From the NCBI RefSeq assembly GCF_008087665.1, contig NZ_CP042912.1, positions 1,798,001-1,862,000 of the forward strand: a DNA stretch of 64,000 nt. Direction: 5' to 3'. Shown here in pieces: positions 3,749 through 22,300 of the stretch. A program made the translations under genes and the position numbers. Positions within the stretch are counted from its first letter, which is position 1. Every line of letters starts with the position of its first letter. The notes under the pieces are model-generated. The model saw only the letters and a program-made list of their open reading frames with translations, was not told the origin of the DNA and made no database searches. The DNA comes from Mariniblastus fucicola (GTDB lineage: Bacteria > Planctomycetota > Planctomycetia > Pirellulales > Pirellulaceae).

Positions 3749-4123
3749 TCAGCTCGACGAAAGCGCGTCTTTCACGACCGCGACCACCGAATCGGAAGTC
3801 AGTGCTGACTTGCCGAACCCCTGGACGGCGCCTTCTTCCATCGCAGCTTTCTGATGATCGTCGAAATTCGTGATCAGCATCGCCGGGATACTTTCAAACT
3901 TTGGATTCGATTTGATCTTTCGGAATACATCCATACCTTCGCTGTGGTCGACGTCCAGCAATCGATTGATCATGATCAGATCAACTTCGTTTTCCTCCAG
4001 CGTTGTCAACGCGTCATCGGCTCCGTGTGCGCGTAAAACATTGGCGTCGAAGTTGGACTTTAGCATTGTCGTGATAAAGAAGTGATCCGCGTTGCAGTTT
4101 CCAATATCCAGTACAGTTGTCAT
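3749..4123 (-). CDS. Stand-alone receiver-fold protein with degenerate active site
   Basis: 124 residues from ATG at 4123; a longer open frame to 4282 adds residues with no receiver similarity and is not used. The order fits the CheY fold: beta-1 TTVLDIGN, VDLIMINRLLD (beta-3), IPAMLITN (beta-4, Thr85) and GFGKSALTSD (Lys105). The residue in the place of the phosphorylated Asp is Asn53. The usual acidic pair after beta-1 is replaced by Gly-Asn. Thr85 and Lys105 are kept. It should therefore not be phosphorylated in the normal way and may act as a phosphorylation-independent (pseudo-receiver) binding protein. No kinase or output domain is next to it. The neighbours are a tRNA and a YXWGXW gene. 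Confidence 0.75.
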   Translation of the reverse strand: MTTVLDIGNCNADHFFITTMLKSNFDANVLRAHGADDALTTLEENEVDLIMINRLLDVDHSEGMDVFRKIKSNPKFESIPAMLITNFDDHQKAAMEEGAVQGFGKSALTSDSVVAVVKDALSSS

Positions 4124-4368
4124 CTGTCGTAAGTTCCTATGGTTATTCCTGCGCGAGCCTCGTGAACCGTCTACGCTGGTTGCGGATTCACAGCATGCGG
4201 CGTCGCAGCCACTTTCGGTGATGAATGAGGGTTTTCTTGAAGTTGAGATTTCAAGGGTTTGACGCACGAGCCTAAGAATCATTACTCGTACAACTGTATT
4301 GTAGCGACATTTTTCTCGAAGCGGAAAATCGTCCGACCTGTCAAACGTTCTTGATGGCTTGGCAAACG

Positions 4369-6633
4369 CTATTTCTTTTTGGACGACCGGTTTCTGAGCC
4401 GACTGGACCTGCTTTCCTGAGGTGGCTTTGGCTTATTCTGCTTCGCTTTTCGAGCGGCATCCTGCTGAGACTTTTGCTGAGCCCGACGAGCTGCGTCGCG
4501 TTGCGATTGCTGTTGTCGAGCACGTTGAGCGGCTTGCTGCCTGGAGCGCTCCTGTTGCGCACGTCTCGCCTGATCTTGCTGCGACTTTCGAGCGGCATCC
4601 TGCTGGGCACGTCGCGCTTTCGCTTGCTGGGCGCGGCGGGCGCTTTCTTGCTGAGCTCTTCGCGCCTGTTCCTGTTGAGCACGTTTTGCCTGTTGCTGTT
4701 GTTGTGCTTTGCGGGCCGAATCTTGCTGAGCCTTTCGAGCCGCCTGTTCACGCTGTTGGACCGACGGGATGTTTTGCATCCGCATCTTCCCGCTGGTGTT
4801 CCGTGTGGTGTTACGCGAATTTTGTTGCTGGGCTCTGCGAAGGCTTTCCTGTTGCTTCCTGCGCAGCTGTTCCTGTTGAGCCCGCTTGGCTTGGTCCTGT
4901 TGAGCCCGTCGCGATTGTTCTTGCTGAGCCCGTCGGGTTTGTTCTTGCTGAGCTTTACGGGCGGAGTCCTGTTGGTTCCGCCGCGTTCGCTCCTGCAGGG
5001 AGCGTCGAGCCTGTTCCTGGAGACGTCGCGCCTGCTCCTGCTGAGCCGTTTTCTTTCCTGGAGAGGGTCGCGTTACCGTTTGCGTCGTACGCGTCTTTCC
5101 TCGACTTTGGGTGTGACGTTCGGGTTGCGAATTGCGACGCTGTGCATTCGACTTCGGTTGACGCGTCTGTCCTTTCGCCTTGCTCAATCGATCCTGTTCA
5201 CGTTCTCTCGTCGACGGAATATTCTGGAGCCGAATCTTGCCGTTGGAATGCTTCGCGACTCGATGCTTCTGCGAAGCATGTTCTTGACGCTTACGTTCAC
5301 GTTGCAACTCGGCACGCTGTTCCATCTTGCGACGATTGTTGCGCAGTTCCTCTTCCGCGACTTTGCGATGTTTCTTTACGCTGTTCTTTTTTGGGCCATT
5401 CTGGTTGTTCGTGACCGATTGCTTTCGGCGTTGTTCGTCATACTTTCGCAGATCCTTGTAAGTTCGAACGTAGCTTGATTTGTGAAGGTAGTCCTTGCCA
5501 TGTCCCCGGCTCCCATGTCGATGTTCAATGTTTCTCGCATGTTTGTGCTGAGCCTTGTAAGTCGGACGGGGCCGGTAATCGCGGTTTTTGATATAGAAGT
5601 TGTGTTGTCGAGCAAGATACTGAACGACGTTGTAACGGCTATCAAACGATGATCGGCGACAACGGTAGTAGGTCAACAACGGATCGTAATTACGATAGTG
5701 ACTGTTGTGCGAAACCCAGGGACGGTAGCTGACGTTGTTGAAGCTCGATCCGTACCAGTCTCCGTAAAAGTAGTGGCCGCAGCGGGGGCGAACGAACATG
5801 TGAGTCAAAAAGTCAATGTTCAGATTGATCGCGTACGACGGACGGTAGCTATAGTTCGCAGTTCGGTAAATTGGCTGAGTGAAATGGACGGGCGCAAAGC
5901 AGGTGCCGCGGTTTTCAAACTCATAATCCCAGTAGCCGGACTGATAGACGCAACCGTTGGGAGTCCAGACATAACGCGCCGGAACCCAGATCCAGTTTTC
6001 GATAACGGGCTGCCAATGTCCGGCCAACCAGCGATAGTTGTTGTTCTGAAATTGCCAGTTGCCTGGAACGTAGAAATATTCTTCGCTTGGCGCAACCGTT
6101 GACGGTCCCTGATCTATCGAAGCCGGCGGCGCTGGCAAGTAGCCAAGTTCCTGCTGGGTTTCTTCAGTCCAAAATCCTGACACCCAACGATATCCGGAAC
6201 CTTCCGAGTCCCAGTAGCCCGGCATCCAACGTCGCGTCGGCGGCACGTCGCGCCAGATTCCGCTGATCCAAATGAAATCGGACTGCGAATCATCCCAAGC
6301 CCAGTATCCAGAAATCCACTGTACGTTGTTTCCTTCTGGCTTGTACTCCGGCGGAACTTCGTCGATCAACTCTGGCGGAGCTTTGAAAACCAGATCGGAG
6401 GATTGCGGGTCTTGCTGATGAGCCGACGCGAACGCTTCGTGAAGCGGCCCTCGAGTCAAAATGCTCAGATCTTCGGGAACTTCAGGAACCTCCGGGATCG
6501 CTGGCGGAACCTCTCCCCATGAATTCGTTCCAATGAGATTTCCCGGTTCTTGCGCAAAAGCAGCGCTGACGAGCAAAACGGAAACCGTCAAAACTGTCGC
6601 GATATTGGGACAAAGTGTCGTCATTTTGATCAT
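4369..6633 (-). CDS. Secreted YXWGXW repeat protein with long Arg/Gln-rich coiled-coil tail
   Basis: 754 residues. An N-terminal signal peptide (hydrophobic TVLTVSVLLVSAAFAQ) is followed by a region of about 250 residues with several Trp/Tyr-rich repeats such as ISGYWAWDDS, MPGYWDSEGSGYRWVSGFW and VPGNWQFQNNNYRWLAGHW. These match the YXWGXW family, which is of unknown function. A Tyr/Arg/His-rich middle follows. The last 300 or so residues are highly charged and repetitive (RRAQQEQA, RKAQQDS), predicted coiled coil. Two copies of a KIRLQNIPS / KMRMQNIPS motif punctuate the tail. The tail's composition suggests binding to an anionic partner such as nucleic acid, exopolysaccharide or cell wall polymer, which is inference. 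ATG 6624 three codons in is an alternative start. Confidence 0.8.
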   Translation of the reverse strand: MIKMTTLCPNIATVLTVSVLLVSAAFAQEPGNLIGTNSWGEVPPAIPEVPEVPEDLSILTRGPLHEAFASAHQQDPQSSDLVFKAPPELIDEVPPEYKPEGNNVQWISGYWAWDDSQSDFIWISGIWRDVPPTRRWMPGYWDSEGSGYRWVSGFWTEETQQELGYLPAPPASIDQGPSTVAPSEEYFYVPGNWQFQNNNYRWLAGHWQPVIENWIWVPARYVWTPNGCVYQSGYWDYEFENRGTCFAPVHFTQPIYRTANYSYRPSYAINLNIDFLTHMFVRPRCGHYFYGDWYGSSFNNVSYRPWVSHNSHYRNYDPLLTYYRCRRSSFDSRYNVVQYLARQHNFYIKNRDYRPRPTYKAQHKHARNIEHRHGSRGHGKDYLHKSSYVRTYKDLRKYDEQRRKQSVTNNQNGPKKNSVKKHRKVAEEELRNNRRKMEQRAELQRERKRQEHASQKHRVAKHSNGKIRLQNIPSTREREQDRLSKAKGQTRQPKSNAQRRNSQPERHTQSRGKTRTTQTVTRPSPGKKTAQQEQARRLQEQARRSLQERTRRNQQDSARKAQQEQTRRAQQEQSRRAQQDQAKRAQQEQLRRKQQESLRRAQQQNSRNTTRNTSGKMRMQNIPSVQQREQAARKAQQDSARKAQQQQQAKRAQQEQARRAQQESARRAQQAKARRAQQDAARKSQQDQARRAQQERSRQQAAQRARQQQSQRDAARRAQQKSQQDAARKAKQNKPKPPQESRSSRLRNRSSKKK

Positions 6634-6748
6634 GGTAAAATCTCGGTGGAGCTCGTTAAAAGCGGGAAACGTTGAATTTCACCCGAATTCATGGGTGTCG
6701 TCGTTCAGCGATTTACTAATAGGGCAACGAGCATGCCAAAGGCGATAA

Positions 6749-7714
6749 TCAGATCGGCGCGGGCAAGTCACGCGTTTTGAAAATGCGGCTGCCAAAGTAG
6801 TAGAGGGCAACTCCGAGAGCAATCAAAAGCAGATTGTTCAGAAGCGGCGCTGGCATGAATTGTCCTTGCGAACCGAACTTGAAAAACGTGAAGCAATCCC
6901 ACACGTTCTTTTGAGCCGTCTCAATTGAGTTAGCCGGTCCGTAGTATCCGAACACCGAAATGAAACGGATCCACGACCAGGACTCTGATGCCATGGCCAA
7001 CACTTTCATGCCGCCTTGCAGAAAATAAAATCCGGCAACGATCCCCAGAGTCCGCCAACGAAATCGATCCATCGACGAACACCACGCCGAAAATCCGCCC
7101 AGAAAGAAGCATAGAGAAAACAGGTTCACGACGCCTGGAAGAAACATCATCGGGTTTACGTGGCTCGACATCTCGACCGTATTCGTCACCGGTTCGGCGA
7201 ACGTCAGCGGAATTTGAGTCACGCCAAAGTTCAGTTCCAGATAGGTCGTTTCTTCGACGCTGGTCGTCCAGATTCCGATCGCCATGAACAGCCACGTGAC
7301 GGCGACCAGTCCAACCATTCCCATGAAAGTCCACAGCGCGTGCGTCCACCAGATTTTCATGCGACTGACGGGCTGAGCCAACAGCATCTCCATCGTGCCA
7401 CGGCCAAGTTCACCGCTGACGACATCCGAACCGCGGACGATGCACCAGCTACAAATCAACATCAGCAGCATCGGTTCATCCAGCGTCAGCGCAGTTCGGC
7501 CAAGATAAGAAACCAGCCAGTCGAAATCGACCGACGAAAATTTCCGCCAGTCCTGCGGCAATAAATCCACGATCTGTTTGAATTGCGACGTGTCGAACTC
7601 GCCGACGACATGGACGCGGACCCAACAAAAGATGGCGATACCGATCGCGATCGACAGCCACAACAGCCACGATTCCGCAAAGTACTTTCGGCGTAGTGCC
7701 TGGTTCACATTCAT
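6749..7714 (-). CDS. ABC-2 type transporter permease
   Basis: 321 residues with about six membrane segments, including LWLSIAIGIAIFCWVRV near the N-terminus, MLLMLICSWCIV, TFMGMVGLVAVTWLFMAIGIW and NNLLLIALGVALYYFG at the C-terminus. The motif VSGELGRGTMEMLLAQPVSRMKIWW after the second segment is typical of ABC-2 exporter permeases (E.erGTle.lLa.PvsR). It forms the membrane channel with the ATPase encoded just upstream; the ATPase stop and this start overlap as ATGA at 7711-7714. The substrate cannot be told from sequence. A large periplasmic loop lies between segments 4 and 5. Confidence 0.85.
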   Translation of the reverse strand: MNVNQALRRKYFAESWLLWLSIAIGIAIFCWVRVHVVGEFDTSQFKQIVDLLPQDWRKFSSVDFDWLVSYLGRTALTLDEPMLLMLICSWCIVRGSDVVSGELGRGTMEMLLAQPVSRMKIWWTHALWTFMGMVGLVAVTWLFMAIGIWTTSVEETTYLELNFGVTQIPLTFAEPVTNTVEMSSHVNPMMFLPGVVNLFSLCFFLGGFSAWCSSMDRFRWRTLGIVAGFYFLQGGMKVLAMASESWSWIRFISVFGYYGPANSIETAQKNVWDCFTFFKFGSQGQFMPAPLLNNLLLIALGVALYYFGSRIFKTRDLPAPI

Positions 7715-8625
7715 GCCGTCGCCTCAGCTTTCCGGTCGGAGGCAACTGTCTTCGCGCTGTGTATTCGGTCGTAAACGCTACGCAAACCGACTGGCTCGAC
7801 GGTCACGTTTCGCAGCGGCATCTCCGCCAGCCATTTGAGAACCGGAGAAAGCTCGCCTTTGGTTTCAATCATCACCCGATCTTCGTTCTGCACGATCGTG
7901 GGACGTTCCTCGGAGTCCAACTTGTGAACATGGTCTGCGACCCGAATGGCTGTCGTCGCGCGAACGCGATGCTGCCACGAAAGATCCTCCATCGACTGCT
8001 CGAACGCCAGCTTTCCCGATTTCAGAATCGCGACGTGATCGCAAACGTCTTCAATTTCGGAAAGCACGTGTGACGAAAAGATCACCGTCTGGCCTCGCGA
8101 TTTTGCTTCCTTGATCAGTTCCAAAACCTGGCCCCGAACGGTTGGGTCAAGGTTGGCAGTCGGTTCGTCGAGGATCAGCAGCGGAGCTTCGACGGACAGG
8201 CAGATTGCCAACGCCAGCTTTTGCCGCATCCCTGTCGACATGAGTCCAACCCAGCGGTTGAGGTCCAGTTCCAGGCGATCGGCGACATCAAACGCGTCCT
8301 TCCACGAGCCACCTTCGCGAAGCCCGGCGAACATCTTCAGCAGACTTCTGGCTCGCATCGTGCGATACATCCGGGCGTCGCCTGGCAAATATGACAGTTT
8401 CGTGTGAACGGAGACTCGGTCCAGATAGCAATCCAGTCCGTCGACCGTCGCGGTCCCGGAACTCGGTTTCAGAAAGCCCAGCAGGCAACGAATTAGCGTC
8501 GATTTGCCGGCACCGTTAGGCCCCAGCAAGCCGAAGACTTCGCCGTCGTCGATTCGCAAGCTGACCTGGTCGAGCGCCAGAAAGTCGCGATACCGCTTGC
8601 TCAATTCATTGGTAATAACGGGCAA
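7711..8625 (-). CDS. ABC transporter ATP-binding protein (ABC-2 exporter type)
   Basis: 304 residues. Start is TTG at 8625 with AGGAG nine bases upstream on the minus strand. Walker A is GPNGAGKST (about residue 35), the signature is MSTGMRQKLALA (Leu-Ser-Gly-Gly replaced by MSTGM, as is common in drug/antibiotic exporter ATPases), Walker B is LLILDEPTANLDP and the switch His is in VIFSSHVL. About 80 residues after the core form a C-terminal domain typical of CcmA/DrrA-like ATPases. It powers the permease at 6749-7714 and is translated with it. Substrate unknown. Confidence 0.9.
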   Translation of the reverse strand: MPVITNELSKRYRDFLALDQVSLRIDDGEVFGLLGPNGAGKSTLIRCLLGFLKPSSGTATVDGLDCYLDRVSVHTKLSYLPGDARMYRTMRARSLLKMFAGLREGGSWKDAFDVADRLELDLNRWVGLMSTGMRQKLALAICLSVEAPLLILDEPTANLDPTVRGQVLELIKEAKSRGQTVIFSSHVLSEIEDVCDHVAILKSGKLAFEQSMEDLSWQHRVRATTAIRVADHVHKLDSEERPTIVQNEDRVMIETKGELSPVLKWLAEMPLRNVTVEPVGLRSVYDRIHSAKTVASDRKAEATA

Positions 8626-8754
8626 GTCGGAATGCTCCTGCTGGTGTTGTAAAACTTTGACATTGTCTCTATCTTCACAGCTTGGCGATGGCCTGACCCG
8701 GCTTTCGCCAGTGTATTTTTACGCCAAAATGATTTGCGCAAAAGGAGTCTGCGT

Positions 8755-9510
8755 GTGTTTGTTGCCGCAACTACGCAATGCTACCCCGACATGCCGCTTT
8801 CCGAGACAATCGAAAAGCTGGCCCACCTCGAATTCTCACACATTGAACTGGGAGTTTACGAGAGCGGTAACCATCTGAAGCCGTCGGATATCAAGAATAA
8901 TTTCGATCAGGCACTCAAGACGTGTCTCAACACGCATCGCCTGGTCGTGACCGGCCTGGATCTGCAGATTGAGGATCCGGGAGAAGAGTATTACGTCACG
9001 TTCACGAAGTGCTGCGAGTTGGCCAAGGCCGCGAAGATTGTTTCGCTGACCGTCCGTGCCAGCGAACACGGCACACCGTTCAACGAGGAAGTCGAACGTT
9101 ACAAACGACTGGTCAAAATCGCTGATGTGCACGGTGTCCGTGTCGGAATGCGAACCGAAGTCGGACGGCTGTCGGCTGATGTGGATACGGTTTCCGTCAT
9201 CTGCGGGCATGTCAAAGGCATGGGCTTGGCGATGGATCCAAGTCATTATCACTTTGGCAATCCGGAACCACCGAATTACGAAAAGCTGATGCCGTACGTG
9301 CACAATGTCTACTTGCGGGACTCAACGCCGGAGCAGCTTCAGGTGCGCGTTGGACAGGGAATCATCGACTACGGTCGGCTGATTAATTTGCTTCGCAAAG
9401 AAGGTTTTCGCAGGACTCTGTGCGTTGATATTCAGCCTCAAGTCGACGTTGATCACGACGGCGAACTCCGGAAGCTCAGGCTGTTGCTTGAAAGCCTGGT
9501 GCTGATTTAG
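8755..9510 (+). CDS. Sugar phosphate isomerase/epimerase family TIM-barrel protein
   Basis: 251 residues from GTG 8755, chosen because AGGAG lies at 8743-8747, seven bases upstream; a TTG at 8734 would extend it by seven residues without such a site. The sequence follows the xylose-isomerase-like/AP-endonuclease-2 barrel: LEFSHIELGVYE (strand 2), VTGLDLQIED, AAKIVSLTVRAS, VRVGMRTEV, GLAMDPSHYHFGN (metal-binding Asp/His region) and YVHNVYLRDS, VGQGIIDYGRLINLLRKEGF, LCVDIQP. These positions usually bind a divalent metal. The exact substrate, a sugar or sugar acid, is not deducible. It is divergent from the ABC operon. Confidence 0.8.
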   Translation: MFVAATTQCYPDMPLSETIEKLAHLEFSHIELGVYESGNHLKPSDIKNNFDQALKTCLNTHRLVVTGLDLQIEDPGEEYYVTFTKCCELAKAAKIVSLTVRASEHGTPFNEEVERYKRLVKIADVHGVRVGMRTEVGRLSADVDTVSVICGHVKGMGLAMDPSHYHFGNPEPPNYEKLMPYVHNVYLRDSTPEQLQVRVGQGIIDYGRLINLLRKEGFRRTLCVDIQPQVDVDHDGELRKLRLLLESLVLI

Positions 9511-9576: not shown

Positions 9577-10572
9577 ATGAATGAGTCAGCTACGGTATCT
9601 GCATCTCAGGCGAACGTTCGCGTTGGCTGGGAGCGGACTCGTTGGCTGATTCGAGCCGGCATGTGGAGCTTGCTGCTGGCCTACCTGTTTTCGTTTTTCG
9701 GACAGCGTTTTTTTGTTGCTGAGTTGCTGGCCAACTTTCGTACCCAGTTTTTGGTACTGCTTGTCGTCGCAGTTCAGCTGACGAAATTTTCCAGGACATC
9801 GTGGCTGCTGCTCATCTGTCTTCTGCTCGCGACCGCGTGGGCGGGATGGGAGACGGGCAGGATCTACTTGCCTGCGAGTCAACCGCCGGCCGGGAAAACG
9901 TCGCTACGGTTGATGTCGTTCAATGTTCTTGCAACCAATACTGAGTTCCAAGCTGCGATCGAAGAAGTTCGCAAGCATGATCCGGATGTTGTGGCTGTTT
10001 TGGAGTACGCCAACAACTGGCATGTTGCCTTCGACCACCTAAACGAAACGTACCCGTACCAGCATCGCGATCCGAGATGGCATGGCTACGGGATCGCAAT
10101 CTTCAGCAAGCTTCCGCTGGAAAACACTGAGTCTGTTCCGTTGACTGAGGAAGAGATCGACAATCCTGCGGCGATTGCGAAGTTTAAATTCGGCGGGCAA
10201 ACTCTGCGATTGGTGGCCGTCCATGTCATGTCACCTATCAATCGCTATCGACTGGATCTTCGAAATCGGCAGTTCGAGCAAATCGCGACTCTCGTTAACG
10301 ACGAAAGCACTCCGACCATCCTGTGTGGTGATATGAATTGCAGCCCGTCGTCAAGGTTTTTGTCAGGCCTGATCGACGAGACGGCGCTTCGCGATAGCCG
10401 CCAAGGCTTCGGTGTTCAGCCTTCGTGGCCGGACTTTGCATTCGGATTCGGAATCCCGATCGATCACGTTTTGGTCTCAGAATCGGTGCACGTCCACGAT
10501 CGCTTCCTCGGTGAATTCGGAGGAAGCGATCATTGCCCCGTGATCGTGGACGTTTCCGTCGAACAACCCTAG
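9577..10572 (+). CDS. Endonuclease/exonuclease/phosphatase (EEP) family protein, membrane-anchored
   Basis: 331 residues from ATG 9577. Two or three N-terminal membrane segments (about residues 27-100: AGMWSLLLAYLFSFFG, FLVLLVVAVQLTKF, SWLLLICLLLATAWAGWE) precede an EEP catalytic domain. The domain shows LRLMSFNVLATN (metal/catalytic Asn), DPDVVAVLEYAN (catalytic Glu), TILCGDMNCSPSS (GDxN motif), IPIDHVLVSE and GGSDHCPVIVDV (SDHxP). Known relatives act on nucleic acids, phosphoinositides or sphingomyelin; the N-terminal anchor with an extracytoplasmic catalytic domain matches the common bacterial membrane form. Its stop overlaps the stop of the convergent lysyl-oxidase-like gene (shared CTAG at 10569-10572). 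Confidence 0.85.
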   Translation: MNESATVSASQANVRVGWERTRWLIRAGMWSLLLAYLFSFFGQRFFVAELLANFRTQFLVLLVVAVQLTKFSRTSWLLLICLLLATAWAGWETGRIYLPASQPPAGKTSLRLMSFNVLATNTEFQAAIEEVRKHDPDVVAVLEYANNWHVAFDHLNETYPYQHRDPRWHGYGIAIFSKLPLENTESVPLTEEEIDNPAAIAKFKFGGQTLRLVAVHVMSPINRYRLDLRNRQFEQIATLVNDESTPTILCGDMNCSPSSRFLSGLIDETALRDSRQGFGVQPSWPDFAFGFGIPIDHVLVSESVHVHDRFLGEFGGSDHCPVIVDVSVEQP

Positions 10573-13500
10573 CCACGAATTGGCGAAAGCTCACGTTTGA
10601 CTTTGACATCGAACGCGTCGAGTTCGGTATCGCTGCCAAAGGCGTTATCGATCGAATCAAAGTCCTGACGGTCAGTACGCTTGATCAAATCAGCACTCGA
10701 ATCGAAGTCGGTTCGATCGCCGGCCAATTTGATCGCACCCGAAAGATCAGCGACGACGGTTGTATTGTCGATCTTTCGCGAGTTGTTGACGTTTTGAACT
10801 TTGATTGGAACGATCTGTCCAGCACGAGAAAACGAAACGAGTTCGGTTTTGGAATCCACGGCCTTGGACTTCACTGGCGTGAAATCGTCGGCGGCAAAGG
10901 GATTGTCAGCAATGATCCGTTTGGTCAACGGTGGAGTCGACTGTGGAACTTCCGCGTAGAAAGCACCGACGCCGAACACGAAATATCCGATCCATTCCGA
11001 GCCGTGATCGGTTTCGGAGTCCGCAGACGTTTCTTCTTGCAGAACCGAATTGAGGTTTCTTGACTTGGTGAATGCCGTCCGTGTTGTGACGGTGTCGCTG
11101 TTATTGAACGTTTGGATGCTGGCAAGAACGTTCTTTCGGCCAAGATATGTGTTCAGAAGTTCAATTTCTCGAACGCCAGAGCTGACTTTTGCGGTCCCAA
11201 CTTCGAAATTCGTGTGTTCCGTCGAACCCGTTCCAAGCTCGATCGCCAACCACTGTCCGGTGTGACTCACACTGCTGCCTTCATTGGTTGACTCTTGCAA
11301 CTGTGAACGCCAGTCGAATCCAGATTCGCTAATTCCGTCGAACCGGGTAGTGACGGCCTCGCCGTCGTTGAGAAGTTGTCCCAATACAATTGGCGTAGTG
11401 TCAAAGGTGTTCCCAAACTCCACGTTGTTCCATGCACCGTTCGAAATTGAGCTCTGCCCGGCGGCAATCACCGTGCCGTCGCGAAGCGTATGCGTTCCTT
11501 CCTCGACAACAAAGTAGCTGACGGATTCGCTTGTATGCTGTCCGTCGCCCAGTGTGTTGATTCTGATTTGGAAGCCACCATTGCTGAAGTCATCCACGAT
11601 ATCAACGGTGACAGGTGCGGAGGATCTCGTCGATGTTACGCTTGCCATAACAACCGGGCTCTCGAAGTTGCCTCCAAGTGGGACCCATTGCCAATCCGGC
11701 GTCGCTTCGATGATGCCGGAATTGGCCACCATGTCAGGGACGTCGATCGTCAAATCGTAAGTGTTGGTGTTTCCATTGGCCCCCAAAACTTCGATGAAGT
11801 AAAGTTCGCCTGCCACGACATCGACACGCAGCGTTTCGTTGTCATTCTCCTTGTCCGCCCGACCAATCTCCTGCTGGTCGGAATCGTAAACAATGAAGTC
11901 CACATTTCCGTCAGCGATTGCGTAAGTAAGGTCAATTTGGGCATGCGTTGAGTCTTGTGCTGTAAAGCGGAAGAAGTCAACGTCCGCATCGTCGTGAATG
12001 GAAAGATCAGCATGTGAGTAATAGCCGATCGTGCCAAGGTCCGTGGCTTGCGGGAAAGCGTCATTTTGCTCCAACACGTCGCCCGGGTTGTTGTCGATTC
12101 CGGTGAACATCAAACCCCATTCGCGAAGCGTTCCGGTGTCGGCCGAGTACCAGTCTGTGATCTCGACCGTCCAGGTTCCCAGTGCGTTTTCGCCATTGAA
12201 AGCCGAAAGCGGATTCGAAATATCGCCAAAGTTCACATTGAACGAACCGGTGTAGGGAGCGTCCGCGTCAGAAATGTTGGTCGGTGCTTGATCATCAAGC
12301 GTCGTGTTCGTGAAGTTGTCTCCGCCGCCGAGCGGTCCTTCGCCGCTTCCCTCGTAGTCGGAGCGGATGATATGAGCCCGTGTTCCTGCTGGCGAAATCA
12401 ATGCAATGCTAAGGTCCGCCATCCACGTATGGTCCAGATCCTGAAACAGCAAGTTCAAATCCGTCAGCGTAATGTCAGGACCTTCGATGGTGCTGGTGAT
12501 CGTATCGCCAGCCTGCCCTGCCCCTTCACCGTCAGGGATGTTTACAGGAATATCCGTGCTTGGAATCGTCGTTGTGATCAAATCTCCCGGGCCGGACATC
12601 TCAAGGCCGTATCCATTGGTCGCTCCGTCGACGCCCAGAACTTGAAGGAAGTAAGCTTGGCCTGGCAGAACGTCGAATTCCAGGATCTCCAGATCGGTTA
12701 AGCTTTCAGCGCTGGTGACCAAATCGAGGTTGCTGTCGTAGACGAATGCATCCAGGTTTCCAAGCTGATGGCTGAAATCGAGTTGAACTGAAAACTCGCC
12801 AGCTTCGGCTGCCGCAAACTGGTAATAATCCACGTCCTGATCGGTGTGAATCGACAGTCCTTCTTCGCTTCGCTGGCTGACGATTCCCATGTTGTAGCCT
12901 GCCGTGAACGAGTTGTTAGGCTCAAGTCGGTCGCCGTTGGCTCCGGGGCCGCCTTCGATCGTAACCGTGATGATCGTTGTGTTGTTGGTCTCGTCGGACT
13001 CCAAAAGTTTGTCTTCTGGATCGGTCACGACTTCAAGGTAATAGTCACCGTCATCGATTCCGGAAATGTTGATCCACTGATCGCTTAGTCCGCTGCCATA
13101 GACATCTGACCAGCCCGCGGAGACGCCCTGAGTCGTGCCGCAACTGCCGTAGTTTGAAGCTCCGGCATCATCGTCGTATCGAGTGATGTCGATCAGGCAA
13201 AAGCTGATCTTTCCGCCCGTCGCCAAAATGTCACCGACTTCGCCAGCAGGTCCGATCTCGCGCAAGTTGTAGATCGCATAACCATCGAAGTGAATGTGGC
13301 CGTGGCCTTCGTGATACGTAAACTCCCCAGCCAGACGATCGCGAAACCCACCTTCGTCATCATAGATCCGCTGAAAGACTTCCTGGTTGCCGTTGTCAGT
13401 GGGCTCGCCGCCGAAGACTTCCAGGTGCCCCGCGCCCTGGTTGGCAAACGCAGTCGAAAATCGGAGCAGCTCTCCTTCGACGTAGTAATCGTGCAAGTAG

Positions 13501-13625
13501 CCCCGTTCTTCGCTCTCCCACGCGAACACGTCCGGTAGAACATCGTTGGCCAACATGTTGCGCCGCTCAAGCTTTCCAAAGTCAAATTGGCTCTTCTTAA
13601 CACGGGTGTTCTTACGAGTAGGCAT
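10569..13625 (-). CDS. Large surface protein with lysyl-oxidase-like domain, PPC and P-domain modules
   Basis: 1,018 residues from ATG 13625; an upstream in-frame start at 13670 adds 15 unlikely residues. The N-terminus has LERRNMLA, the LExRxLLA planctomycete surface motif. Residues about 30-225 match the lysyl oxidase catalytic domain. Copper ligands are in GHGHIHFD (His108, His110, His112). Lys139 in GKISFCLID and Tyr176 in SDVYGSG line up with the two residues that form the lysine tyrosylquinone cofactor in animal LOX, and ESDETNN matches the ESDYTNN end. Then follow a pre-peptidase C-terminal (PPC) domain (about 230-345), a proprotein-convertase P-domain (about 360-500), a second PPC domain (about 515-620) and a C-terminal beta region with DWQWVPLGG-type repeats. 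It probably oxidises amines or lysines at the cell surface. It is divergent from the thioredoxin-like gene. Confidence 0.85.
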   Translation of the reverse strand: MPTRKNTRVKKSQFDFGKLERRNMLANDVLPDVFAWESEERGYLHDYYVEGELLRFSTAFANQGAGHLEVFGGEPTDNGNQEVFQRIYDDEGGFRDRLAGEFTYHEGHGHIHFDGYAIYNLREIGPAGEVGDILATGGKISFCLIDITRYDDDAGASNYGSCGTTQGVSAGWSDVYGSGLSDQWINISGIDDGDYYLEVVTDPEDKLLESDETNNTTIITVTIEGGPGANGDRLEPNNSFTAGYNMGIVSQRSEEGLSIHTDQDVDYYQFAAAEAGEFSVQLDFSHQLGNLDAFVYDSNLDLVTSAESLTDLEILEFDVLPGQAYFLQVLGVDGATNGYGLEMSGPGDLITTTIPSTDIPVNIPDGEGAGQAGDTITSTIEGPDITLTDLNLLFQDLDHTWMADLSIALISPAGTRAHIIRSDYEGSGEGPLGGGDNFTNTTLDDQAPTNISDADAPYTGSFNVNFGDISNPLSAFNGENALGTWTVEITDWYSADTGTLREWGLMFTGIDNNPGDVLEQNDAFPQATDLGTIGYYSHADLSIHDDADVDFFRFTAQDSTHAQIDLTYAIADGNVDFIVYDSDQQEIGRADKENDNETLRVDVVAGELYFIEVLGANGNTNTYDLTIDVPDMVANSGIIEATPDWQWVPLGGNFESPVVMASVTSTRSSAPVTVDIVDDFSNGGFQIRINTLGDGQHTSESVSYFVVEEGTHTLRDGTVIAAGQSSISNGAWNNVEFGNTFDTTPIVLGQLLNDGEAVTTRFDGISESGFDWRSQLQESTNEGSSVSHTGQWLAIELGTGSTEHTNFEVGTAKVSSGVREIELLNTYLGRKNVLASIQTFNNSDTVTTRTAFTKSRNLNSVLQEETSADSETDHGSEWIGYFVFGVGAFYAEVPQSTPPLTKRIIADNPFAADDFTPVKSKAVDSKTELVSFSRAGQIVPIKVQNVNNSRKIDNTTVVADLSGAIKLAGDRTDFDSSADLIKRTDRQDFDSIDNAFGSDTELDAFDVKVKRELSPIRG

Positions 13626-13669: not shown

Positions 13670-13685
13670 CGTGATGTCAATCACG
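13670..13685. promoter_or_regulatory. Candidate CRP-like operator between the divergent surface-protein genes
   Basis: CGTGATGTCAATCACG is a perfect inverted repeat with arms CGTGAT/ATCACG and contains GTGA-N6-TCAC, the half-site spacing recognised by CRP/FNR-family regulators. It lies about 45-60 bases upstream of the lysyl-oxidase-like start, inside the 247-base region shared with the thioredoxin-like gene. No regulator of this family is visible in the window. Confidence 0.35.
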
Positions 13686-13872: not shown

Positions 13873-16119
13873 ATGAAACGACGTCGTCGCGCGAAGAACG
13901 GTCACGACTATTCAGTCCTCGAGCCACGCCAGCTACTGGCGACAACAGGTTTGCCGCAGTTCGATGGAGACGCATCCATCGACACCGGTTTGATCGTCAA
14001 TGCAGACTTCGATCAAAACGAAGTCGCAGACGCGACGGCTGAACGCGTTTTGATTTCCGACGTTCCGGGCTGGAGCCAAACCGCCGGAGCAAGCGACACG
14101 ATTAGCCTGGTGGGGTTCAATGACTCTCCGCGCGGAACCGGATTCCATCTGGACGCACAAGCCGATGTGCTCGAGTCCATTTCCCAGGATGTCGCTGTCG
14201 TTGAAGATCAGCTTTACACGTTGGCATTCGATCTGCTTGGCCGTCCCGTTGGCGACACTGCGGACGCAAGCACCAACGACGTTCGGATTTTGTGGGACGG
14301 CGAGCAAGTCGGTATCTTTTCGGGGATCACTGACTTTTGGCAAACGTTTACCGTGACCGTACGCGGCACCGATGCGGAAACGTCCCGCTTGGAGATTCAG
14401 GAAGTCGACGGTGTTGGCAATGATGGTGTCGGCGCGATGTTGGACAACCTGCGACTTGTTCCGGTTTCCAATCAGGCCGTTGAAAATGGAAGCTTTGAAG
14501 ACAACGAGTCTGGCACCGTCAGTCAGGACGACGTTCCCGGTTGGAGTGTCTCAGCCGACGAAGACGAACGCCTGGCTGATATTCAAACCGGAACTGCGAG
14601 CGACGGGTCCCAGTTCGTTAACCTTGATCGCCAATCAGATAACTCAGACATTCTCTTCACAGACATCACGACCGAAAACGGCGGGATATACTTTGTTTCC
14701 TTCGACCTGCGATCCGAAAGCGGCGTCGTCGGCGAAGACGAAGAAGTTCGCGTCCGCTGGAACGACGAATGGGTTGGGACCTATCGTGGCAACTCCGACT
14801 GGCAAAGCTTCGGCTTTACGGTGCGAGCCGACTCCGATTTGACGCGACTGGTCTTCCGCGAGCCCGGTGGTGAGTTCACAGGTGATGGAGATGGTCCGCT
14901 GCTGGACAACGTCACGATCACAAAAGTCGTTCCGTCTCTTTCAGTTTCGGTAGGTGATACGACTGAGTTTGAGTTCACTGAGAACGACGGACAGCTGGAA
15001 CTTGGTTCGGGAATTACGGCGATCAATTCGACGGTTAGCGATGCCATCACAGGATTCACGGTTTCGCTTCCTGCGTCGGCTGATTCCGCAACGGAAATCC
15101 TTCGCGTCGATGGCTTGGACTCATTTGTCGAATCGGAAGACGGAACGCTGACTTTCGAAGCAGATCTGAACTCGGACGAGTTCCTGACCGTGCTGCAGAC
15201 GTTGACTTACGAAAATACATCGGACAATCCTGTTGCTGGCACTCGCTCGATCGCAATTCAGGTCAGCTCAGGAAGCGTCACGTCGCCGAGCGCGAACTTG
15301 ACTGTCAACGTCACGCCCGTAAACGACGTACCGGTCATCACCGACATCGCTGATGGCATGGCTTCCGTCGATCAACTGTTCAATGTCCAGGCAACGGCGA
15401 CTGATGCAGAAGACGAGACCATCACCTGGAGCGTTACTGCGGCTGGTAGTGCGATTCTCGACGGTGATGTTGAGCCAACGATCGATTCAGGCGGAACGAT
15501 CAGCTGGACTCCAGCCCGGGAAGGTGCGGCTGTGTTTACTGTCCGAGCCACCGATGCGACGGGCGATTTTAGTGAAACGCAGTTCTCTGTGACCGCTACG
15601 GAGCAGACTTTTCTGGACACGGGAAATGTAATCGTGAACTCCGGAACGGACTTGCCACTGTTTGATTCGACCGCAGCGACGGATGATGCGATCGGAGAAA
15701 CTCTGGCCGATTTTGAGGCTCAAACGATCACCGGCGAAGCCTTCAACAGCATCGAGCCTGGCGTGGGTCGAATTTACGCAGTGCTTGCGCACTGGTGTCC
15801 GTTCTGCAACGATGAACTTCCGGAAATCGTTGAATGGCTTGGCGACACTGATCTTGGTGACGACGTCGAATTTGTCGCGGCTGCGGTTTCCGTGGATCCG
15901 GATGACGAAACCTATCCACCGTCCCAATGGTTTAGTGATGCTGGATACGATGGGACGATCATCGTCGACAATACGCAAGCAAAACTGATGGACCTTCTTG
16001 GCACGGACCGGTTCCCATTCCTTGTTGGCGTCGATAGCAGCGGCGAAGTCGTTTATCGATCCCAGGGACTGTCAACGCAAGCACAGTTCGATGCGGCACT
16101 TGCTGCGGTTCGATCCTAG
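13873..16119 (+). CDS. Planctomycete surface protein ending in a thioredoxin/redoxin-like domain
   Basis: 748 residues. After a basic leader (MKRRRRAKNG) comes LEPRQLLA, the planctomycete extracellular motif; there is no classical long hydrophobic signal. Two related modules of about 150 residues follow (around 40-200 and 205-350), each starting near VNADF / VENGSFED, passing through PGWS and ending LDNLRLV / LDNVTI, like DUF642/galactose-binding beta domains. Next are a Gly/Ser/Thr-rich region and a cadherin-like segment (VTPVNDVPVITDIAD, 480-580). The last 150 residues are thioredoxin-like: AVLAHWCPFCNDELPEIVEWL with CxxC (CPFC), then VAAAVSVDPDD, and FPFLVGVDSSGEVVYRS containing the cis-Pro. 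The family catalyses thiol-disulfide exchange; here it would sit outside the cell. It is divergent from the lysyl-oxidase-like gene. Confidence 0.85.
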   Translation: MKRRRRAKNGHDYSVLEPRQLLATTGLPQFDGDASIDTGLIVNADFDQNEVADATAERVLISDVPGWSQTAGASDTISLVGFNDSPRGTGFHLDAQADVLESISQDVAVVEDQLYTLAFDLLGRPVGDTADASTNDVRILWDGEQVGIFSGITDFWQTFTVTVRGTDAETSRLEIQEVDGVGNDGVGAMLDNLRLVPVSNQAVENGSFEDNESGTVSQDDVPGWSVSADEDERLADIQTGTASDGSQFVNLDRQSDNSDILFTDITTENGGIYFVSFDLRSESGVVGEDEEVRVRWNDEWVGTYRGNSDWQSFGFTVRADSDLTRLVFREPGGEFTGDGDGPLLDNVTITKVVPSLSVSVGDTTEFEFTENDGQLELGSGITAINSTVSDAITGFTVSLPASADSATEILRVDGLDSFVESEDGTLTFEADLNSDEFLTVLQTLTYENTSDNPVAGTRSIAIQVSSGSVTSPSANLTVNVTPVNDVPVITDIADGMASVDQLFNVQATATDAEDETITWSVTAAGSAILDGDVEPTIDSGGTISWTPAREGAAVFTVRATDATGDFSETQFSVTATEQTFLDTGNVIVNSGTDLPLFDSTAATDDAIGETLADFEAQTITGEAFNSIEPGVGRIYAVLAHWCPFCNDELPEIVEWLGDTDLGDDVEFVAAAVSVDPDDETYPPSQWFSDAGYDGTIIVDNTQAKLMDLLGTDRFPFLVGVDSSGEVVYRSQGLSTQAQFDAALAAVRS

Positions 16120-16359
16120 CGTTCACAAATTCTGCCGCTGGTAACTTTGAAGAAATAAGTTGCGGGCTTCGGAGCCGCCTGAAGGGTGGCTTCGTGTGTG
16201 AATCTTCATCACAATTCTGCAAGCGTGGGCTTGCGGAATTCGGCAACGTGTGCGCGAACGCGCGACTCTGAAACTTCGGGTGGGCAGGGCGGAGAATGTC
16301 TCTATAATGTGCGGTTCGCAAAATTCGAACCAACCATTCTGCCAGGAATACGCCGCCGT

Positions 16360-19300
16360 ATGCCAGCTTCCGATATCGTTGTAAAAGGTGCTCGTGAACA
16401 CAATCTTCAGAATGTTGACCTTGTCCTTCCGCGCAACCAGCTTATTTGCCTGACCGGAGTTTCCGGGAGCGGTAAAAGTTCGTTTGCGTTCGACACCGTT
16501 TTCGCAGAAGGACAGCGTCGGTATGTCGAAAGTCTGTCCAGTTTCGCGCGACAGTTCCTCGGCCAAATGTCGAAGCCGGACGTCGACCTGATCTCGGGTT
16601 TGAGTCCATCGATTTCGATTGCACAGAAAAGCTCCGGCAACAATCCGCGTTCGACCGTCGGAACGATCACCGAAATCTATGACTTTCTCCGAATTCTCTA
16701 CGCACGGGTTGGTCAGGGCTTCTGCCCGAAATGTAACACGCCGATCACAGCGCAGTCCAAGGATCAGATCATCGGGAGCATTTTTACGCTTCCTGAAAAC
16801 ACCAGCTATTCGATTTTGGCTCCCGTCGTACGAGCTCAGAAAGGTGAGCACAAAGACCTGTTCGCCGAATTGCTGCGTCGCGGATACTCTCGTGCCCGCG
16901 TCGACGGCGAAACCGTTTCGCTCTCGAGTGAAATTAACCTCGACCGCTCCCGTCGCCACAATGTCGAAGTCGTCATCGACCGGTTGGTCGCCAGTCCCGC
17001 GATCCGCAGTCGTCTGACCGAGTCCGTCGAAGCTGCGCTCAAGATTGGCAAAGGAACGTTGGTTGTTGAGTTCGCCGACGAGTCTGCGGCACAGTCCGCG
17101 CCCGTGAATCCGGATGCGCCCGAAGCGGAATCGACCGGGAAAACGTCGCGACGTAAAAAGAAGACTCGTAACAAGAGCATCAGCGGTTCCGACAGCGATC
17201 GCGTTTACTCGGCCGACTACGCTTGTCCCGGCTGCGGTTTGGGTTTCTCGCCTCCGACGCCTCAGATGTTTTCCTTCAACAGCCCGCAAGGCATGTGCCT
17301 TGGTTGCGATGGCCTGGGCGATGTGTTCACCTTCGACCGCGATTTGCTGGTTCCCGAACCGCACAAGTCCTTCCAACAGGGCTGTTTCGAATTGCTTGGG
17401 AAATGGAAAGACCTCGGTCGTTGGAAACGCCACATCTATCAGGGTGTCGCGGACACCGTGGAACGCGAGTTGAATCTCGAAGCCGGTACGATGCTGGAAA
17501 CTGCATGGGAAGACCTGACGGAACAGCAGCAGGACATGTGGCTGTACGGTACCGACGACATGCACATCACGTACACCTGGAAAGGTGGCAACTCGCCGAT
17601 GAAGTACGGCGGGCAGTTTCCAGGAATCGTTTCGGAGCTGGATGAAAAGTACCAACAGCTGACCAGCGCTCCCAAGATTCGCAGCCTTGAAGCGTACATG
17701 AACGAGATCAAGTGCGTTGAATGTGGTGGCGCTCGACTCAATCGCCAGTCGCGAAACTTCCGGCTCAAAACGACGCACGAAAGTTTCGCGGACAAACCCG
17801 AACTTTCGCTGCCGGATGTTTGCAACCTGTCGATCGCTGAAGTTCGGGCCTTCTTCTCAGGTTTGGATCTGGACGACGTTCGCAACTACGTGGCCACCGA
17901 ACCGCTCAAGGAGATCCGCAACCGGTTGGGATTCCTGCTCAACGTTGGCCTCGACTATCTGACACTCAATAGGACCGCACCGACGCTTTCTGGTGGCGAA
18001 ACGCAGCGTATTCGACTGGCCGGACAAATCGGTGCCGGCCTGGTCGGCGTGCTTTATATTCTTGACGAGCCATCGATCGGTCTGCACGCCCGTGACAACG
18101 ATCGGCTGATCAGCACGCTGGAACACCTTCGCGATCTTGGCAACACCGTCGTCGTGGTCGAACACGATGAAGACACAATGCGAGCGGCCGATTACTTGAT
18201 CGACTTTGGGCCTGGACCGGGTGTGCGCGGCGGTGAAGTGGTCGTCGAAGGACACCCTTCGGAAATCATCAAGGACAAGAAAAGTCTCACAGCGCAATAT
18301 CTGTCCGGTCGTTTGGAAATCGAAATTCCGGAACAGCGTCGTCTGACCGACCCGGAAAAGAGCTTGCGGATCACGAACTGCAAGCACAACAATCTGTTGG
18401 GCGTCGATGTCGAAATTCCGCTGGGGCGATTTGTCTGCGTCACTGGTGTTTCGGGAAGCGGGAAAAGTTCGTTCGTCAACGGGATTCTGAAAGAAGTTCT
18501 CAAGCAGGAACTTAACGGCGGAATCAGCGAAGCCGGTGAGTTCGGTGAGATCATTGGCCTCGAACATCTCGACAAAATGATCGCGATCGATCAGTCTCCG
18601 ATCGGCCGCACACCACGTTCGAACCCGGGAACTTACGTCAAGCTGTTCGACGAAATTCGCAAGCTCTACACGCAGCTTCCCGAAGCCAAAACTCGCGGCT
18701 ACAAAGCCGGTCGATTCAGCTTCAATGTTCGTGGCGGTCGTTGCGAAGCCTGTGAAGGCAACGGTTCGAACAAACTTGAGATGGATTTTCTGGCCGACGT
18801 TTGGGTCACGTGTCCGATTTGCCAGGGAGCCCGTTTCAATCGCGAAACGCTGCAGGTCCAATACAAAGGCAAGTCCATCGCGGACGTGCTGCAGATGGAG
18901 ATCGAAGAGGCGTTGCACTTTTTCGAATCCATTCCTGCGATTCACAAAAAGTTGCTGACGCTGCAAGCCGTCGGGCTGGAGTATCTCAAAATCGGGCAAC
19001 CGTCGCCAACGCTGTCCGGTGGTGAGGCTCAGCGAATCAAGCTGGCTCGCGAACTTGCCAAACGTTCAACCGGCAAGACGCTGTATTTGCTCGACGAACC
19101 CACCACTGGTTTGCACTTTGCCGACATTCGTTTGTTGCTTCAGGTCCTGCAGGATTTCGTCGAAGCAGGAAACACGGTGTTGGTCGTTGAGCATAATCTT
19201 GACGTGATCAAAACAGCGGACTGGGTCATCGATCTTGGTCCTGAAGGTGGCTCGGGCGGAGGTCAGTTGGTGATCAGTGGAACGCCTGAAGAGGTCGCGG

Positions 19301-22300
19301 CGTGCCCGGAATCGCATACCGGAAAGGCGATCGCCAAGGCACTTGAACCGCGAGCTGAAATTCCGGCTCCTGAGTCCGGCACGAAATCGATGACGCCGAC
19401 GCTGGCGACGGAAATCAAAGTCCGTGGTGCGTCACAGCACAATTTGAAGACGCTTGATCTCGATGTTGAGCGAGACAAGATGACCGTGTTCAGCGGTCCG
19501 TCTGGCAGCGGGAAAAGCTCGATGGCGATGGACACCATCTACGCCGAAGGCCAGCGTCGCTATGTCGAAAGCCTCAGCTCGTACGCTCGCCAGTTCGTCA
19601 ACCAGCTGGAAAAACCTCGCGTCGATCAGATCGAAGGACTCTCGCCAGCGATTGCGATCGAACAGAAAACGCTCGGTTCGACTCCCCGATCCACCGTCGG
19701 AACTGTCACGGAAGTTTATGACTACCTGCGGATCCTGATGGCTCGTTTGGGCACGCCGTATTGCCCGGATTGCGACAAACCGATTGGAACGCAAACTTCG
19801 GACGATATCGTCGACAAAATCCTGGCTTACGACGAAGGAACGCGGCTGTTGCTGATGGCTCCCGTCGCTCCGGAATCGGGACAGAGCTACGAACAGCTGT
19901 GGGATGATATTCGCGCCAACGGCTACCAGCGAGTTCGCATCGACAAAGAAACTCACGAAGTCGATTCGCTGCCCGCGCTCAATCCGCGCGGTTCGCACAA
20001 AGTCGAAATCGTTGTCGATCGCATCGTCGTCAAAAAAGGATCACGCTCGCGAATCGCGGACAGTATCGAGGCTGCGTTGTCGATCGGCGTCGGCGTCTGT
20101 CACGTTGCGGAACCGAACGAAGCCGTTCCGGAAAATTTCTGGAACGTCGTCAAACACTCACAGCATCTGGCCTGCCATTGCTGCGGTCGGTCGTTTGAAA
20201 CGCTGGGTCCACACAACTTCTCCTTCAACAGCCAGCTTGGTTGGTGCACCGATTGCGAAGGTATTGGAACGCAAACTGGAGCCGATCCGAAAGTCATCAT
20301 CGATGATCCGGAACTTTCAATCAAAGCCGGTGCGATTACGATTTGGCCTTCTTTGAAATCAAAAATGTCGGCCGGCATGCTGAAGGCCTGGACGACAGGA
20401 ACCGGGATTCCGGACAACAAACCGTTCAACCAGTTGGACGCACGTCAACGACGGATGGTGTTCTTTGGAACGGGCGATCGTTGGTTTGAAGTCAAAGACA
20501 AAGAGGGCAACGTTCAGTTTTCGTTCCAGTTCAAAGGTCTCTATCCGACGATGGAAGAAGCCTCGCGGCGTTCGGCCACGCTTCGCACGCGTCTGCAGTC
20601 GTTGATCGGAGAAGTCGAATGTGGTGCATGCGGCGGAAGTCGATTGCGAGAAGACGCTGCCGCGGTTCGGTTCCGGGATTTGACGATCGACGGAATCTGC
20701 CGTTTGCCGATGGGCGAAATGGTCAAGACGCTCAAGAAATGGAAACTCGATAAACGCGAGAAGAAAATCGCGGGCGAACTAATTCGAGAAATCTCCAGTC
20801 GCATTTCGTTCCTGATCGACGTCGGATTGAGCTACCTCACGCTGAACCGAACGGCAGGTTCGCTGTCCAACGGCGAAGCCCAGCGAATCCGGCTTGCCAG
20901 CCAGCTGGGAAGCGGGCTGTGCGGCGTGCTGTACGTGCTCGACGAGCCCACGATTGGGTTGCATCCGCGAGACAATACCCGGTTGTTGGCGGCGCTTCAT
21001 CGCCTGCGAGATCTTGGCAATACGCTAATCGTCGTGGAGCACGATCGCGAAGTCATCGAAAGCAGCGACTCGATCTGCGACTTCGGTCCCAAATCCGGTG
21101 TGCACGGCGGCGAGATCGTCGCGCACGGTCCGCCTGCTGAAATCGCCAGGAAAGGCCTGGGAACTACGGGGCCCTACCTCGGTGGCAAAGATGGAATTCC
21201 GATTCCGACCAACCGACGCCCTGCCCTTTCTCTCGACGCACCGCCGGTTGGGAAAAAGAAGAAAGCGACGAAGAAGAAAGCTCCCAAAAAGAAGATGATC
21301 GATGCTTCGTCGGAGGAAAGTCTGGCCATGACGCTGGACGTTGTCGGCGCCCGACACAACAACCTCAAAGACATCGAAGTCAAGTTTCCGCTGGAAGCCC
21401 TGACCGTCGTCACGGGACCATCGGGATGTGGCAAAAGTTCGCTGGTCAATGAGATTCTGTACAAGGCTCTTGCTCGCCGTTTGCACCGGTCGTCGCAAAC
21501 GCCTGGACAGTTCAAAGGCATCCGCGGCCTGGAGGCGATCAATAAAGTTATTCGCGTCGACCAAACGCCGCTTGGCAACTCGCCGTCTTCAAACCCGGCG
21601 ACTTATACCGGAGTGTTTGAGCAAATTCGTGAACTGTTTGCCAACTTGCCTGACTCGAAAGTTCGTGGCTATACGGCGCGTCGATTCAGCTTCAACGTTC
21701 CCGGCGGACGCTGTGAAGAGTGTACCGGCCAGGGAATGTACTGCATCGAAATGCACTTCCTGCCGGACGTCTGGATTCCATGCGAGACCTGTAAAGGGCA
21801 ACGCTACAACGAAGAAACGTTGTCCGTGAAATTCAACGGTAAATCGATCGCGGACGTGCTGAACATGCCTTGCGGCGAAGCACTCCAACTGTTCCGCAAG
21901 ATTCCCAAGATTCGTCGCACGTTGAAAACGCTTTGCGATGTCGGACTTGATTATGTAACCCTCGGCCAGAGCGCGCCAACGCTCTCCGGCGGTGAAGCTC
22001 AACGTGTGAAACTTTCGGCGGAACTCGCGCGTCCCGACACCGGACGAACGTTGTATTTGCTGGATGAGCCCACAACCGGTTTGCACTTTGAGGATCTCAA
22101 GAAACTGATCGAAGTCATCCAACGGTTGGTCGATGTCGGCAACACGGTCGTTGTCATCGAGCACAATCTTGACTTGATTAAGTGCGCTGACTGGGTGATC
22201 GATATGGGCCCTGAAGCCGGTTCCGCAGGCGGCGAAGTCGTCATCGCTGGTACGCCGGAAATGGTCGTCGAGTACGCCGAACAGGCCAAAGCTTTGGCAG

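Follow-up and report, generated by a model that had tools for sequence, protein, structure and literature searches.

Lysyl oxidases (LOX) are built around a copper-and-quinone catalytic domain, of the kind found in the human enzymes that cross-link collagen. Prokaryotic LOX of family PF01186 with the same residues, bacterial as well as archaeal, were described in 2015 (Grau-Bove et al., PMC4448552), and the archaeal HTU-LOX is an active amine oxidase (PMC6452851). The present analysis concerns a LOX-domain protein of the planctomycete Mariniblastus fucicola, encoded on the minus strand of a 64,000-nt stretch of contig NZ_CP042912.1 (positions 1,798,001 to 1,862,000; this whole stretch is the window, and coordinates refer to it). 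The lysyl oxidase-like sequence noticed there in an initial annotation is real. It shares with the described prokaryotic enzymes the LOX domain, the HxHxH motif, the lysine, the tyrosine and a patchy distribution, and it is not exceptional among prokaryotic LOX, bacterial LOX domains being already known. It differs from the prokaryotic sequences of PMC4448552 in being modular, these being given there as single-domain except for three, and from the bacterial ones in possessing the first copper-site histidine, which that account gives as not present in bacterial sequences. The five bacterial clades with LOX in the distribution survey of PMC4448552 do not include Planctomycetota; the LOX grouping of PMC6452851 leaves planctomycetes unnamed, and its group of 'all other eubacterial LOXes' might include some. 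Within the open-licence literature, no paper on lysyl oxidase in planctomycetes was found, and nothing on bacterial LOX, by title, beyond these two. The present account adds a description of LOX domains in Planctomycetota, often modular, and the finding that many of the bacterial domains compared carry the first copper-site histidine, contrary to PMC4448552. The gene and its parts are as follows.

10569..13625, minus strand: open reading frame of the LOX-domain protein (ATG at 13625, stop ending at 10569; 1018 aa, pI 4.1, 20 Lys, 2 Cys)
13548..13571, minus strand: N-terminal LExR motif LERRNMLA, residues 19-26 (seen in the sequence; putative export role)
12957..13538, minus strand: LOX catalytic domain, residues about 30-223
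13290..13313, minus strand: copper-ligand cluster His105, His108, His110 and His112 (by alignment register)
13209..13211, minus strand: Lys139, equivalent of LOXL2 Lys653 and LOX Lys320 (by alignment register)
13098..13100, minus strand: Tyr176, equivalent of LOXL2 Tyr689 and LOX Tyr355 (by alignment register)
12981..13001, minus strand: ESDETNN, residues 209-215, predicted part of a calcium site and a stretch shared with CARDB
12639..12836, minus strand: PPC domain 1, residues 264-329 (Pfam; protein score just under cut-off)
12105..12440, minus strand: proprotein convertase P-domain, residues 396-507 (Pfam E=1.6e-11, over cut-off)
11787..11990, minus strand: PPC domain 2, residues about 546-613 (approximate bounds, offset from residues 558-625 of the relative L005)
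10911..11708, minus strand: C-terminal region of weak H-type-lectin similarity, residues about 640-905 (bounds by eye)

The domain matches PF01186 over residues 101-223 (E=9.5e-16, 58.5 bits against a curated cut-off of 20.4) and is the only such match in its genome (6.57 Mb, 95% complete). In a phmmer alignment with LOXL2 (5ze3; E=3.6e-10), on which the pairs were counted using the LOXL2 numbering of PMC9659206 and PMC9694262, His105, His108, His110 and His112 pair with His623, His626, His628 and His630, and Lys139, Phe142 and Tyr176 with Lys653, Phe656 and Tyr689. By script-checked numbering, Lys139 lies within GKISFC and Tyr176 within WSDVYG, HGHIH occupies residues 108-112 with His105 ahead of it, and ESDETNN occupies 209-215. 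The copper ligands His108, His110 and His112 are thus in the PF01186 register, and so are Lys139 and Tyr176, the precursors of lysine tyrosylquinone (LTQ), though these two do not discriminate. The copper-binding histidines had been recognised, and the lysine and tyrosine placed in the LOX register, from the start; this is supported, as is the claim of a modular, probably exported protein carrying the domain. The window domain has the LOX catalytic fold (two structure models, which share one set of 11 sequences including a His-less one and so are not independent). It had been proposed that a model with Lys139 and Tyr176 far apart would count against an oxidase. In the crystal of the LOXL2 precursor these residues are themselves 16.6 Å apart (PMC9659206), so a short distance is not decisive and a long one would reject human LOXL2 as well.

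The weight of each residue was judged from 50 domains, the window domain and 49 bacterial relatives, with re-fetched copies counted once; left out were L001 (the window itself), L004 (treated as one protein with L005) and also L014-L020, which match through a CARDB-like end only. The core copper triad HxHxH is present in 39/50, and by its presence we divided the set into 39 triad-bearing and 11 broken domains. All four histidines occur in 33 of the 39 (the window and 32/38 others), and the first histidine in one broken domain besides. Three broken domains (L043, L048 and L032) retain two triad histidines, L043 being the one with the first histidine too, and the other eight have at most one. 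Intact cofactor residues had been singled out as unusual for such a protein, which is not supported, the triad being the norm in the domains compared and 'widely conserved' in the text of PMC4448552. Lys139 and Tyr176 are present in all 50 domains and, unexpectedly, in 11/11 of the broken ones; like that of the triad, their retention exceeds what chance would give. Their count is biased by the way domains were recruited: PF01186, patterns from the window protein (EFTYHEGH, ESDETNNT among them) or a Lys- and Tyr-containing alignment were used, so domains without these residues could escape detection. Counts at gappy positions vary with the alignment, as for Asp32 (41/43 in one, 50/50 in another), those for Lys139 and Tyr176 being stable. 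Phe142, Cys143 and Cys162, on the other hand, are kept in 37-38 of the 39 triad-bearing domains, whereas among the 11 broken domains they survive in 1, 2 and 2, respectively. Since copper-broken relatives retain both lysine and tyrosine, these two alone are weak evidence of an active site or quinone and should not be taken in annotation as the mark of an active LOX; it is the copper histidines, the phenylalanine and the cysteine pair that discriminate. The window domain has the full set of triad, Phe142, Cys143 and Cys162, and for this reason the protein is judged probably active as an oxidase.

From the observed domain, fold, residue register and module order, it is likely that the protein is an exported, modular copper/LTQ amine oxidase of the lysyl oxidase type. 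In such an enzyme the N-terminal LOX domain would bind copper through His108, His110 and His112, with His105 assisting; copper and oxygen would turn Tyr176 into a quinone, which Lys139 would attack to give LTQ; and the mature site would convert primary amines, either protein lysines or small amines, to aldehydes and hydrogen peroxide. Anchoring at the cell surface or in the extracellular matrix may be the task of the PPC, P-domain and lectin-like modules. The cross-linking of surface proteins suggested earlier is a candidate role; the archaeal enzyme accepts many small amines too (PMC6452851). The surface had been imagined as that of a bacterium without a normal wall, a view now dated, a peptidoglycan-like substance having been reported in 2015 in several planctomycetes (as told in PMC5814848).

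Several observations weigh against this reading. The cofactor set had been called complete, and while the histidines, lysine and tyrosine are in place, that word goes too far on comparison with animal LOX: the equivalent of LOXL2 His652, directly before the LTQ lysine, is Gly138, and Cys143 and Cys162 are the sole cysteines of the whole protein, allowing at most one disulfide against five in the LOXL2 catalytic domain (PMC9659206). The earlier reading as a whole is partly supported. A histidine at the His652 position is found in 4/39 triad-bearing domains, and LOXL2 H652Q retains less than 50% of its LTQ, the biogenesis of which is described as still elusive (PMC9694262). NCBIfam gave a single match at E=0.17 and no model at cut-off. 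The sorting role of the LExR motif is putative. Only 2/28 genomes of the genus, the present one included, have a PF01186 match, so the gene is without a core envelope function. The scaffold is not fixed either: two further genomes of the family encode proteins, L052 and L037, in which a different module chain ends with a C-terminal LOX domain (DUF4347, Calx-beta and CBM60 in L052, the one of the two scanned with Pfam). Ten collagen (PF01391) matches occur in the genome, none over cut-off (best E=0.0024). Finally, the full-length archaeal HTU-LOX was inactive as a recombinant protein, and its native role is termed 'cryptic' (PMC6452851).

A narrower form of the same reading, that the protein is an active copper/LTQ oxidase of small amines serving nutrition, signalling or peroxide production and not protein cross-linking, is possible, if somewhat short of probable. 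It draws on the substrates of HTU-LOX, which acts on small amines such as histamine, cadaverine, glycine and taurine, but lysine-containing polypeptides and polymers are also among them (PMC6452851). That no collagen domain over cut-off was found in the genome, and no neighbouring gene in common across the eight relatives' loci tested (see below), fits this specificity as well. Against it stand the large surface-type modules, suggestive of a fixed location.

It is unlikely that the domain is simply a structural or binding module, a CARDB-like beta sandwich in which Lys139 and Tyr176 would be conserved because folding needs them, the copper site being a relic or only seldom occupied. Both residues do persist in every copper-broken relative, together with 13 further well-conserved positions; the fold persists in the His-less L008; and the LOX domain has some similarity to CARDB. 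Against this, Phe142 and the cysteine pair track the triad as if it were a working site, and the window domain keeps the whole set. The domain tree demands at least three separate triad changes (L035, on a long branch, was omitted from a second tree); it is blind to the direction of change, and that the changes were losses is inferred from the presence of the histidines in animal LOX and in the majority of the domains compared. Each of the three copper histidines is essential for LTQ formation in LOXL2 (PMC9694262), so the copper-less relatives should not form LTQ in the usual way. It could be speculated, with some doubt, that the Lys-Tyr pair, persisting through these losses in planctomycetes and a verrucomicrobial relative, has a copper-independent function: the two residues might be joined by a different chemistry, through some other metal or an external oxidant, or might serve a structural purpose that predates the quinone. 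In that case LTQ would have arisen on a Lys-Tyr pair that a beta-sandwich surface domain already possessed. Copper-less relatives that keep both residues are natural controls for LTQ formation and for the role of each part of the site; an open-licence search for lysyl oxidase and pseudoenzyme gave a sole match, by title on hypoxic cancer cells. Collagen is rejected as a substrate, PF01391 never exceeding its cut-off in the genome, and recent acquisition of foreign DNA is rejected on composition (gene GC 0.533, window GC 0.529, that is, ordinary), an old transfer being still compatible.

The motif ESDETNN, listed originally as part of the LOX cofactor signature, reads differently. Glu209 and Asp211 align (phmmer) with LOXL2 Glu722 and Asp724, which belong to the trio of acidic residues named for its calcium site (PMC9659206), so the motif is the calcium corner and no evidence of the cofactor. 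It is also where the domain resembles CARDB (PF07705; 3idu): the protein scores 23.2 bits against a cut-off of 22.7, over residues 191-216 only, and as just model positions 73-98 of 101 are matched, this is no whole-domain match. The same likeness accounts for L014-L020, 7/16 loci of one relative set, which were matched solely via a CARDB-like end (six assigned from the match range, L019 from the profile). When the class was searched by profile, the 15 strongest matches were full domains (E<=2.7e-62) and the remaining 15, at 1.4e-7 and weaker, covered the CARDB-like end only; there were no intermediates among the 30 matches listed (at most seven candidates scored per genome).

The distribution of the gene is patchy. 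Genomes with a PF01186 match, the present one included, numbered 4 in a search of 60 relatives, 14/392 in a sample of the phylum and 17/396 in one of the order; the class profile search matched 23/397 genomes, 13 with a full domain and 10 with the CARDB-like end only, as counted among the 30 matches listed. These genome sets, and that of the genus, overlap. Closest to the window protein is L005, with 81% identity in the domain and 58% across 936 residues; L054 and L055 are 48% and 47% identical over 897 and 860 residues. An adjacent pair of LOX genes, both with intact triads, occurs in a Phycisphaerales metagenome-assembled genome (L011, plus strand, 3848-6451 and 6455-8968).

The module order is repeated in three relatives. 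PPC is represented by two stretches that remain below cut-off in the window protein (E=1.5e-4, 23.0 bits against 25.9), but it exceeds the Pfam cut-off in L005, L054 and L055, and the region of PPC domain 1 corresponds to the best PPC stretch of the latter two. Likewise, H_lectin gives E=0.2 (below cut-off) here and E=1.4e-8 (above it) in L054. A Pfam scan of 20 relatives (E<=0.01) found PPC in 10 and the P-domain in five. Animal LOX and LOXL2 differ in the position of the catalytic domain, which is N-terminal here, and Pfam found no SRCR domain in the window protein. An alternative GTG start is possible at 13670, upstream of the ATG.

In 17/49 relatives a loose LExR motif lies ahead of the LOX domain; the search pattern was looser than LExRxLLA and without its own chance control, and several loci stop short of the N-terminus. 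PEP-CTERM-like motifs were seen in 8/49 (L030, L032, L033 and L056-L060). Six of these eight are on broken-triad proteins, and 16 of the 17 LExR motifs on intact-triad ones. In the open frames of L057 and L058, PEP-CTERM is matched by Pfam internally (348-372) and not terminally.

Six window genes were compared with eight relatives' loci of 6.5-14.7 kb each (L005, L052, L053, L054, L055, L051, L006 and L010; far neighbours lay beyond reach), and the LOX gene alone was matched, so a conserved operon is rejected. The divergent neighbour at 13873-16119 (plus strand) starts with LEPRQLL, contains DUF642 and a He_PIG-like region, and has a redoxin-like domain with WCPFC at its C-terminus; as a LOX partner it was set aside, showing no synteny at these loci. 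Elsewhere in the window, a 754-aa open reading frame at 4369-6633 (minus strand) has a tail highly enriched in Gln, Arg, Ala and Lys repeats and no Pfam match at E<=0.01, and one of 2418 aa at 16186-23442 (plus strand) resembles, by eye, a tandem fusion of two UvrA-like excinuclease halves.
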